From SAR86 cluster bacterium AG-313-D11 (GTDB lineage Bacteria > Pseudomonadota > Gammaproteobacteria > Magnimaribacterales > D2472), in the NCBI GenBank assembly GCA_003284215.1, contig QBVW01000003.1, positions 62,001 to 126,000 of the forward strand: DNA of 64,000 nucleotides, in the 5' to 3' direction. Numbering within the stretch: position 1 is the stretch's first letter; each line of letters begins with the position of its first letter. The notes beneath the pieces were generated by a model that was not told the DNA's origin, searched no databases, and saw only the letters and a program-made list of their open reading frames with translations. Position numbers and translations under genes: made by a program. Below, in pieces: positions 8,238 through 14,129 of the stretch.

Positions 8238-8942
8238 TCAATCTAACAAGAAATCATCCATATCATCCACAAAATCATCTGACTGATTTTCTCCATTACT
8301 AGATTCAAACTCTTGATACTGCATATATGAGTCTCTGATGAATGAATATCTATCACCTATAATTAAAGTCTCAACCTCTAAATATCTTGCTCGAGTCTCT
8401 AAGGCGTCAAGAGCTGTAATTCCTATCCTTACATCAGTTTCCTCGATTGCAAATGTTCCACTTAAAACTGAACTAACGCTTCTTCCAGCTAAGCCTCGAG
8501 GAGTCGATGGTCCATACAAAGGAAGCATTAAGAATGGTCCAGAACCTACTCCCCATGCTCCTAGAGTTTGACCAAAATCTTCATCGTGCCTTTCTAAACC
8601 AAAGCTTGATCCAACATCTATAAAGCCTCCAAGGCCTATGGTGGTATTAATTAAAAATCGAGAAAAATCATTTACAGCAAGAAGAGGCTTGCCTTGCAAT
8701 AATTGATTGGCTGTATTATCTAGTTCATTTAGATTTCTAAAAAAATTTGAAATTGCTATTTCTACAAAGTTAGGAGCAATTGATGTATAAACTTCAGCTG
8801 TTGGTTTAGCGAAATTATCATCAAGAAATTCATTAAAAGCCCAAATTTTTCTGTTGTAATCTTCAAAAGGATCATCTGCAGCAAGAGATTGAAAACTTAA
8901 TAGGAATGATAAATAAATTACGATGTATTTATTAAATTTCAT
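8238..8942 (-). CDS. mlaA: MlaA/VacJ-family outer-membrane lipid-asymmetry protein without a lipobox
   Basis: MlaA sits in the outer membrane and removes misplaced phospholipids from the outer leaflet, passing them to MlaC. The 234-residue protein has an N-terminal signal peptide ending near SLAADDP, then the family signature DPFEDYNRKIWAFNEFLDD and the segments GLGGFIDVGS and GPFLMLPLYGPSTPRG. MlaA is normally a lipoprotein, but this protein contains no cysteine, so it is predicted to be cut by signal peptidase I. The C-terminus is strongly acidic. Its start overlaps the mrp stop by 4 bases (ATGA). Confidence 0.9.
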   Translation of the reverse strand: MKFNKYIVIYLSFLLSFQSLAADDPFEDYNRKIWAFNEFLDDNFAKPTAEVYTSIAPNFVEIAISNFFRNLNELDNTANQLLQGKPLLAVNDFSRFLINTTIGLGGFIDVGSSFGLERHDEDFGQTLGAWGVGSGPFLMLPLYGPSTPRGLAGRSVSSVLSGTFAIEETDVRIGITALDALETRARYLEVETLIIGDRYSFIRDSYMQYQEFESSNGENQSDDFVDDMDDFLLD

Positions 8943-9658
8943 GATGTGATTTTAACGATTTTATTGTAAAGGGGCTCAAAAAAAGATGATAATTTATTTG
9001 GATTAAACTCAGCTAAATCTCTTATTCTGGGGATAGACCCTAAAACTTTTAAACCAGTCTCATCCTCAAGATCAATTAGGTCAAACTCAGAGACTTCTTC
9101 ACCAGAGACCGGATGAATAGAGTGGGACATATTGTCCACAACTCCGATCATCGGTATCTTTAGTTTGTCAAACATTGTCTTTGATTTAATTGTATCTTGA
9201 ACAGCTAACTTACTTTGAGAGGTAACCAAAAGCACATTATTTGGTTTAATCTCTGATGCTACAGTCAAATAAGCATCGCCAGTCCCTGGCGGCATATCAA
9301 TAAATAAATAATCTAGATCGCCCCACTGTGTTAGTTCCTTGAGCTGCTTAATAGCACCGCTAAGCATAGGCCCTCTCCACATTGCAGCTTTATCTTTATC
9401 AAGAATAAATCCCATGCTGTTTAAAAGAATATTATTTACTTCAATCGGTATGAATGATTTATGTCCATCAACGGTCTTAACCTCAGGCTTAGAGTTAAAA
9501 ACATTAAAGAGAATATGTTGGTTAGGTCCATATATATCTGCATCAAGAATCCCAACTTTAAAATCTTGCGCAAAATAAGAAGCCAGATTTGCACAAATAG
9601 TTGATTTGCCAACTCCACCTTTTGCTGAAGCTACAGCAATTATTTGTTTGATGCCCAT
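8939..9658 (-). CDS. mrp: Mrp/ApbC-type iron-sulfur carrier ATPase, lacking the CxxC motif
   Basis: Mrp-family P-loop ATPases carry or insert Fe-S clusters. The 239-residue protein has the deviant Walker A motif SAKGGVGKST (11-20), DADIYGPN (40-47) and DMPPGTGD (121-128). It lacks the N-terminal MIP18-like (DUF59) domain of longer Mrp proteins. The cluster-binding CxxC that normally follows NMS is absent: the protein reads DNMSHSIHPVSGEE (175-188), and its only cysteine is Cys22. Placement divergent from metG is conserved in gammaproteobacteria and supports orthology. Confidence 0.9.
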   Translation of the reverse strand: MGIKQIIAVASAKGGVGKSTICANLASYFAQDFKVGILDADIYGPNQHILFNVFNSKPEVKTVDGHKSFIPIEVNNILLNSMGFILDKDKAAMWRGPMLSGAIKQLKELTQWGDLDYLFIDMPPGTGDAYLTVASEIKPNNVLLVTSQSKLAVQDTIKSKTMFDKLKIPMIGVVDNMSHSIHPVSGEEVSEFDLIDLEDETGLKVLGSIPRIRDLAEFNPNKLSSFFEPLYNKIVKITS

Positions 9659-9676
9659 TGATATAATGTTTTGACT

Positions 9677-9682
9677 TATAAT
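9677..9682 (+). promoter_or_regulatory. Candidate -10 box (TATAAT) for metG
   Basis: A perfect TATAAT lies in the short mrp-metG divergent spacer. Transcription from it would start near 9690, leaving a leader of only about 25 bases before the ATT codon at 9714. No good -35 match is seen at the right distance, and there is no clear Shine-Dalgarno before 9714. Confidence 0.4.
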
Positions 9683-9713
9683 ACTCGATAAGTAGTTAAA
9701 TTGGGTCTCTCAA

Positions 9714-11681
9714 ATTAATAAATCAAGAAAAATAATCGTAACAAACGCTCTTCCATATGCAAATGGTGATATCCATGTCGGTCATATTTTAGAGCACATT
9801 CAAACAGATATTTGGTCTCGCTTTATGAGATTGACAAATAATGAAGTTTTAACATTTTGTGCTGATGATGCGCATGGTGCTCCAATTATGATGAAAGCGG
9901 ATGAGCTCGGCATCGAGCCCAGTGCATTTATAGATAAAATAAATAAAAGTCATCAGGTATCGTTAGCTAAATTTGGAATCGAATATACTAATTATTACTC
10001 AACACACTCATCAGAAAATGAAGCCTTGGTTTCAGAAATATATCTTGACGCAAAATCATCAGGATATATTTACAAAAAAGACGTAGAGCAATGTTTTGAT
10101 GAGCAAAAACAAATGTTCCTGGCCGATAGATATATCATTGGAGATTGCCCTAAATGCTCTGCAAAGAATCAATATGGAGATGGGTGTGAGGAATGCGGAG
10201 CGACCTACTCAGCTACTGAACTAGTCAATCCAAAATCATCTTTATCTGGCACTACACCAATAACAAAAATTTCCGAACATATATTTTTTGATCTAGAAAA
10301 AGCAAAAGACAATTTAATAAATTTTCTTGAAAAATCAACATTACAAAAATCAATAGTCGCAAAATTATCAGAGTGGCTTGATGGTGACTTGAAGAGCTGG
10401 GATATATCAAGGGATGCACCCTACTTTGGATTTAAAGTACCCAATGAAACGGATAAATATTTTTATGTTTGGGTTGATGCTCCTATTGGATATATCGCAT
10501 CAGCAACAAATTGGGCTAATAAGAACAATCAATCACTTGAAAATTTATGGGGCAAAAATTCACAATATGAAATACATCATTTTATTGGCAAAGATATAAC
10601 TTATTTTCATGGACTATTTTGGCCAGCTTTATTGATGAAATCAAAATATAAACTTCCTGATACTATTCATGTGCATGGTTTTGTAACTATAAATGGGGAA
10701 AAGATGTCTAAGTCAAAGGGCACATTCATTACAGCCGACCAATTTGCTGAAGCGTGTGATCCAGAGTTATTGAGATATTATTTTGCAAGCAAGTTGAACT
10801 CTAAAATTGAAGATCTAGATCTGAATCTTGAAGATTTAGCACAAAAAATAAATTCAGATTTAGTTGGTAAATTTTCAAATATATTTAGCCGCTCCGCACC
10901 ATTTATTTCAAAAAATAAAAACTGCTTAAGCAATGAAATTCATCAAGAGCATTTATCGCAGTGTAATAAAAATATCGAAAAGATATTAGAACACTACGAA
11001 GATAAAGAATTCTCTAAAGCAATCAAGCTGATCATGGAGATAGCTGATGATACTAATAAATTTATCAATGAGCATGCTCCCTGGAAGCTTGATCAAGCTG
11101 CTGCCGTTATTGTTGCAACAACATCAATCAATGTTTTTAAAAACTTATGTATTTTGTTGTCTCCAGTCACTCCAAAGCTATGCAAGCAAATGTTATTGAT
11201 GTTAAATATTGATCAGTACAGCATTGAAGATTTACAAACTCAATTAATTGATAGTGAAATTAGTGAATTTAAAGCTATCCTCTCGAGGGTTGAACCTCTG
11301 GATATTAAAGATTTTTATAAAAAGGATGAAAAGATGAGCGAAGAAGATGACAATATCATTCAAATAGACGACTTTATGAAAGTTGATCTAAGGGTTGCTA
11401 AAGTAATAGAAGCCTCATATGTAGAAGGTGCTGATAAATTACTAGCTATAAAGTTAGACTTAGGGCACTTAGGCACGAAAAATGTATTTGCAGGAATTAA
11501 ATCGGCATATGAGCCCTCTCAATTAGAAGGAAAGTTAGTTGCAATGGTTTATAACCTTGCTCCAAGAAAGATGAAATTTGGTGTATCTGAGGGTATGATC
11601 TTGGCAGCAAGTGATTCTGATGGTGGCATCTTTGTGCTATCTCCTGATTCAGGAGCGCAACCAGGACAAAAAATTAAATGA
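9714..11681 (+). CDS. metG: Methionyl-tRNA synthetase with probable AUU start
   Basis: MetRS charges methionine onto initiator and elongator tRNA. The reading frame carries KIIVTNALPYANGDIHVGH with the HIGH-type motif HVGH at 9774-9785, a four-cysteine zinc knuckle (CPKC...CEEC), KMSKS, and a C-terminal tRNA-binding dimerisation domain from about 11380. The first in-frame ATG (9825) lies after the HIGH motif, so it cannot be the true start. Between the in-frame TAG at 9693 and 9825 there is no ATG, GTG or TTG codon. ATT at 9714 gives INKSRKIIVTNALPYANG, which aligns with the family N-terminus and yields 655 residues, close to E. coli's 677. The exact start remains unproven. The stop overlaps the next ATG (ATGA). 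Confidence 0.92.
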   Translation: MNKSRKIIVTNALPYANGDIHVGHILEHIQTDIWSRFMRLTNNEVLTFCADDAHGAPIMMKADELGIEPSAFIDKINKSHQVSLAKFGIEYTNYYSTHSSENEALVSEIYLDAKSSGYIYKKDVEQCFDEQKQMFLADRYIIGDCPKCSAKNQYGDGCEECGATYSATELVNPKSSLSGTTPITKISEHIFFDLEKAKDNLINFLEKSTLQKSIVAKLSEWLDGDLKSWDISRDAPYFGFKVPNETDKYFYVWVDAPIGYIASATNWANKNNQSLENLWGKNSQYEIHHFIGKDITYFHGLFWPALLMKSKYKLPDTIHVHGFVTINGEKMSKSKGTFITADQFAEACDPELLRYYFASKLNSKIEDLDLNLEDLAQKINSDLVGKFSNIFSRSAPFISKNKNCLSNEIHQEHLSQCNKNIEKILEHYEDKEFSKAIKLIMEIADDTNKFINEHAPWKLDQAAAVIVATTSINVFKNLCILLSPVTPKLCKQMLLMLNIDQYSIEDLQTQLIDSEISEFKAILSRVEPLDIKDFYKKDEKMSEEDDNIIQIDDFMKVDLRVAKVIEASYVEGADKLLAIKLDLGHLGTKNVFAGIKSAYEPSQLEGKLVAMVYNLAPRKMKFGVSEGMILAASDSDGGIFVLSPDSGAQPGQKIK

Positions 11682-13541: not shown

Positions 13542-14129
13542 ATGTTAAAAGATAGATTTAGAAAATTTTTACCAGTGGTTGTTGATTTAGAGACTGGTGG
13601 TTTCGATTCAAAAAAAAATGCTATTTTAGAAATTGCAATTCAGCTAATTGATGAAGAGAAATCTAGCCTTGTGCTTGGTGAATCAATTAGATTTCATATT
13701 GAACCATTTGAAGGATTAAATGTAGATAAGGACGCTTTGGAATTTTTAAAATTAGATTTAAAACATCCGTTAAGGTCAGCAGTCGAAGAAAAATTTGCTC
13801 TTAATGAAATATTTAAAATTATCAATATACAAAAAAGTAAATACGAATGTTCTAGAGCAATACTAGTTGGTCACAATGCATTTTTTGACCACAGCTTCCT
13901 TCTGGAAGCATGCATAAGAAACAATGTTAAAAAATCTCCATTTCATCCATTCTCATTAATTGATACGGTAAGTTTAGGTGTGCTTGCTACGAAGCAGACT
14001 GTATTGGCGAGAATTTGTAAAGAATTAGAAATTCCATATGACAATGAAGAAGCTCATAGTGCTGCATATGACGCTATGGTTACTGCGCAAGTCTTTTGCA
14101 AAATAATCAATGAGTTTGATTTAAATTAG
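13542..14129 (+). CDS. rnt: Ribonuclease T
   Basis: RNase T is a DEDD-family 3'-5' exonuclease that trims the 3' ends of tRNA and other stable RNAs. The ATG at 13542 gives 195 residues beginning MLKDRFRKFLPVVVDLETGGF, matching the family's RFRGFYPVVIDVET start; an in-frame TTG at 13494 would add an unrelated extension. The DEDDh residues are visible: Asp and Glu in VDLETGGF, GHNAFFDHSFL, and His and Asp in AHSAAYDAMVTAQVF. The product is about 20 residues shorter than E. coli RNase T. Confidence 0.92.
   Translation: MLKDRFRKFLPVVVDLETGGFDSKKNAILEIAIQLIDEEKSSLVLGESIRFHIEPFEGLNVDKDALEFLKLDLKHPLRSAVEEKFALNEIFKIINIQKSKYECSRAILVGHNAFFDHSFLLEACIRNNVKKSPFHPFSLIDTVSLGVLATKQTVLARICKELEIPYDNEEAHSAAYDAMVTAQVFCKIINEFDLN

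Follow-up and report, generated by a model that had tools for sequence, protein, structure and literature searches.

Initiation at AUU, AUC or AUA (AUH) is already known for a handful of genes (infC, pcnB and ccpN). Initiation factor IF3 disfavors start codons that do not end in G (PMC4611024; PMC10158994), and expression from AUU and AUA in S. aureus reporters was about 10% of that from AUG in poor medium (PMC13009471). Switches from AUG to AUU are scarce, with 1 among 61,358 ancestral AUG starts in 36 genome triplets (PMC5622118). The AUU start of E. coli pcnB was shown experimentally, according to Binns and Masters 2002 as cited in PMC13009471. The metG gene of a SAR86 genus, which encodes methionyl-tRNA synthetase (MetRS), very probably adds another case, and does so genus-wide.

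The stretch of DNA analysed here (the window, 64,000 nucleotides) comes from a SAR86-cluster genome (G000) assembled in 22 contigs of 1.30 Mb in total and about 75% complete. The features around metG, in window coordinates, are these:

8939 to 9658, minus strand: gene read from its sequence as an mrp/apbC-like P-loop ATPase, a family that we presume; divergent from metG and bordering the intergenic region
9677 to 9682, plus strand: TATAAT, probable -10 box of the metG promoter, present in every sequence of the genus that was read
9693 to 9695, plus strand: TAG, last in-frame stop 5' of metG, from the sequence reading
9703 to 9707, plus strand: GGGTC, weak Shine-Dalgarno-like element, of which GGTC (9704 to 9707) is nearly invariant in the main clade
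9714 to 9716, plus strand: ATT, putative start codon of metG, placed by alignment of relatives, alignment with a solved MetRS and the substitution pattern
9714 to 11681, plus strand: metG, methionyl-tRNA synthetase, 655 codons plus stop, with a C-terminal tRNA-binding domain
9774 to 9785, plus strand: HVGH, the HIGH-type signature of class I synthetases, 5' of the first ATG (9825)

The product matches Pfam domains PF09334 (4.6e-141) and PF01588 (2.4e-22), and it combines a class I MetRS catalytic domain, with HIGH and KMSKS motifs, and a C-terminal tRNA-binding domain. When translation is begun at 9714, the Pfam MetRS domain starts at residue 8. The 1.30-Mb assembly (about 75% complete) contains this one copy of metG, and no second MetRS was found in it. 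Reading the frame from 9693 to 9825 confirmed what a sequence-only reading of the window had reported, that no AUG, GUG or UUG precedes the HIGH motif: between the TAG at 9693 and the ATG at 9825, the frame that ends with the stop at 11681 lacks ATG, GTG and TTG altogether. It runs TAG (9693) TTA AAT TGG GTC TCT CAA ATT (9714), followed by AAT AAA TCA AGA AAA ATA ATC GTA ACA AAC GCT CTT CCA TAT. An open reading frame begun at ATG 9825 is missing the first 37 or so residues, HVGH included. Annotation limited to ATG, GTG and TTG would therefore truncate an essential MetRS in this marine group.

We read metG 5' ends in 23 species of the genus, 20 of which form its main clade. In 22 of the 23, AUU, AUC or AUA takes the place of AUG as the metG start, the exception being G014. 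The codon aligned with 9714 (codon 0) is ATT in 13 main-clade species, ATA in 6, ATC in 1 and ATG in none; ATT also stands there in G010 and G024, where an in-frame TTG or ATG further up precedes the conserved TATAAT, so that AUH occupies the homologous position in all 20 main-clade species and in these two. The proposal of the sequence-only reading that the ATT at 9714 is an AUU start is strongly supported by this comparison, which it had itself suggested: the arrangement recurs in 20 of 20 main-clade species, and relatives with ATG at this position, which would have spoken against it, number 0 among the 22 genomes in the genus that are of the ATH type. In the main clade, L015 alone carries an in-frame TTG, at codon -2; with that exception, no canonical start lies 5' of the conserved coding sequence. 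Eight species carry TAG at codon -4, nearer to the start than the stop at 9693.

Substitutions place the start at codon 0. Counted on a MetRS tree of the 20 main-clade species, codon 0 has undergone zero changes at bases 1 and 2 and at least 4 at base 3, a synonymous pattern that most of the codons after it share. Codons -1 and -2, by comparison, have changed at each of their bases, 13 times over the 6 positions, and encode Gln, Glu, Lys, Thr or Ile and Ser, Phe or Leu, respectively. Coding periodicity thus begins exactly at codon 0 on this tree, and no other codon between -3 and 3 reads ATH or NTG in every species. The Arg-Lys pair at codons 4 and 5 is invariant, indicating that the protein begins upstream of it. 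In the solved MetRS structure 7ulz, the native initiator Met aligns with codon 0, in agreement with the earlier observation that the product begun at 9714 matches the MetRS N-terminus, and Thiotrichales homologues have ATG exactly at this codon. From these comparisons, the metG start is almost certainly an AUH codon.

We rejected three other positions. A start at codon 6 or 7 (ATA or ATC) would omit the invariant Arg and Lys of codons 4 and 5, which are kept in ATG-started homologues. An upstream start with stop read-through is contradicted by the stops themselves, which vary among species and lie as near as codon -4. The TTG at 9701, in another frame, meets a stop within a few codons and is absent from species with TTAGG.

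The leader appears short. From TATAAT at 9677 to 9682, the transcript probably starts near 9689, giving a leader of about 25 nt; no -35 box of this promoter could be resolved. GGTC lies at -10 to -7, where G peaks upstream of ATG genes. The duplex of the leader with the 16S tail has an energy of about -3.1 kcal/mol, and 37% of ATG genes pair at least as strongly; extended Shine-Dalgarno pairing of the S. aureus type is thus lacking. Folding of the leader RNA in three species was no better than that of shuffled sequence.

The infC gene of the same genome starts with ATC (L105:5897-5899; contig C5, about 15897) behind the leader CAGGTCTCTAGTTATC. Across the genus, infC starts with ATC or ATT and never with ATG, and TTG follows two codons later in most genomes, though not in all; other genera and families of the order have ATA, ATC or ATG. 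The infC and metG leaders have the string GGTCTCT in common, a likeness that is suggestive. We base no claim on it because the genome contains 88 copies of this 7-mer and 8 of the full AGGTCTCTA. IF3 is intact, aligning along its full length with solved IF3 structures. ARAGORN found a single initiator-type tRNA in G000 (about 75% complete), whose anticodon is CAU and whose anticodon stem has the three G-C pairs. This tRNA (contig C1, 302773-302849) has U1 opposite U72; the E. coli initiator has C1-A72. The metG start codon thus lacks a 3' G while IF3 is intact and the initiator tRNA is of the CAU type, so that AUU, AUC and AUA should be mismatched at the third base and discrimination by IF3 is to be expected.

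To see how unusual metG is, we set 937 conserved stop-to-stop frames of G000 against their counterparts in most of G009. In 936 of these frames ATG, TTG or GTG comes first among the candidate starts, indicating that ordinary starts dominate genome-wide, and nowhere is coding conservation 5' of the first canonical start clearer than in metG. Three further starts were read in these two genomes. A trmB-like gene (PF02390; G000 contig C4, 48602 onward) has ATT after AAGG in both; its first canonical codon in G000 is codon 110 of a frame whose length is 223 in most genus members. A nitronate-monooxygenase-like gene (PF03060; contig C11, minus strand, near 13700) shows ATT ATT and 22 codons without a canonical start in both genomes. 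A cofE-like gene (PF01996; contig C3, minus strand, frame from 42265 on that strand) has no canonical start before its conserved N-terminus. A methylenetetrahydrofolate-reductase-like gene (L226) with ATT after GTGAGG in G000 was set aside, as its relatives have ATG or GTG and the ATT is not conserved.

These observations suggest how metG might be controlled. The normal CAU initiator tRNA would read AUU, AUC or AUA at 9714 with a third-base mismatch; such a codon would initiate poorly and be rejected by IF3, and MetRS would be made at a low rate. A shortage of free IF3 relative to 30S subunits would raise that rate, as with infC. Speculatively, MetRS, and hence the charging of initiator tRNA, would be kept in step with the supply of IF3 and ribosomes. 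From the known biochemistry of AUH starts, we judge weak, IF3-sensitive initiation at metG to be probable, with a good deal in its favor. The step from there to a cell that adjusts MetRS to IF3 and ribosome supply by means of the AUH start is tentative, possible but open to real doubt; a link between initiation fidelity and initiator tRNA charging does agree with how infC starts in these genomes and with the established discrimination of IF3 against AUH. A search of the literature turned up no measurement of MetRS under changed IF3. Overall, we regard an AUH-started metG with weak, IF3-sensitive initiation as the likely reading, and its tie to IF3 and ribosome supply as the speculative part of it.

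Several explanations would dispense with a weak AUH start. Translation might begin at the nearly invariant GTC at 9705, three codons upstream, as at the GTC start of Streptomyces sigR, for which IF3 control is documented (PMC5472188). GTC is found there in 19 of the 20 main-clade species, but L020 has TTC there, the amino acids of codons -2 and -1 vary freely whereas codon 0 is always AT followed by a variable third base, and GGTC is better read as the Shine-Dalgarno-like element; infC carries AGGTC about as far from its ATC, out of frame. We consider a GTC start very improbable. A hidden ATG has a negligible chance of being the answer: G000 is a draft, and the sequence-only reading had allowed for a one-base error, but the same gap recurs in independently assembled relatives, with one reading in 20 genomes and substitutions typical of real divergence. 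This recurrence rules the error out; together with the substitution pattern and the 7ulz alignment, it makes AUH initiation very likely. Scarcely any weight can be given to a special initiator tRNA that reads AUU and AUA, for which these codons would not be weak. Nothing was found in its support; a genome that is about 75% complete leaves room for a missed tRNA, but the single initiator-type tRNA identified has anticodon CAU, and canonical codons lead in all but one of the 937 conserved frames.

The main rival to co-regulation accepts the AUH codon as the true start and sees in it plain low expression without regulation, either as a cheap, constant setting in slow-growing, streamlined cells that need little MetRS, or as the relic of a start shift. 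We place its probability a little short of even. Base 3 of codon 0 alternates between T, C and A about as fast as synonymous sites change. In a control, 34 of 67 fourfold sites showing T, C and A were likewise without G across the same species. By this control the absence of G at base 3 is not significant, and with third bases that drift freely it is no proof of selection against ATG. The history of the leader also bears on the relic. G014, near the base of the genus, is the only species with an in-frame ATG within the probable transcript, and this ATG aligns to codon -4, the position used in four genomes of other genera of the family (L050, L051, L054 and L056). G010 and G024 keep an ATG out of frame; a small indel seems to have shifted the start to an existing ATH. 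In another genus, metG of G033 (L052) is without a canonical start in frame, with ATT at the corresponding place; its ATG appears to have been lost independently. These alignments point to an ancestral ATG at codon -4, its loss within the genus through small indels or substitutions around it and a move of the start to ATH, a reading drawn from the tree and the leader alignment, in which G014, G010/G024 and the main clade branch off in an ambiguous order. Against a mere relic, AUG is normally strongly favored, as the single AUU switch among the 61,358 ancestral starts illustrates, and ATG is one base change away yet never seen in the ATH lineage. This maintained avoidance may itself reflect tolerance rather than regulation, and the data fit constant low expression, or tolerance once the start had shifted, equally well.

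If the co-regulation reading holds, its reach could extend beyond one gene. A small IF3-sensed set in SAR86 under AUH starts (infC, metG and perhaps trmB and nitronate monooxygenase), with initiator tRNA charging coupled through metG to the IF3:30S ratio, is a conjecture that we think unlikely as it stands; if true, the AUH set would be a translational regulon, not single-gene autoregulation. In metG, a gene that charges the initiator tRNA and whose start is like that of infC, there is a concrete case for IF3 controlling more than itself.

Among described systems, infC is the closest. In E. coli and other bacteria, it is, like metG, an essential translation gene with an AUH start conserved over many species and read by a normal initiator tRNA, and in SAR86 the two genes share both an ATH start and a similar GGTCTCT leader string. 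They differ in that autoregulation by IF3 is proven for E. coli infC, whereas metG is known here from its sequence, and in that MetRS itself is no initiation factor. The pcnB gene of E. coli offers the parallel of an AUU start limiting the amount of an enzyme; it is not a translation gene, and its start, unlike that of metG, has been established by experiment. The conserved AUH starts of S. aureus ccpN (AUA) and cvfC1 (AUU) were mapped by ribosome profiling and come with extended Shine-Dalgarno sequences, whereas the metG element is weak and its start was located by comparison (PMC13009471). Streptomyces sigR resembles metG in having a genus-wide conserved non-canonical start outside infC, there with IF3 control, but its codon is GTC and its function is unrelated (PMC5472188).
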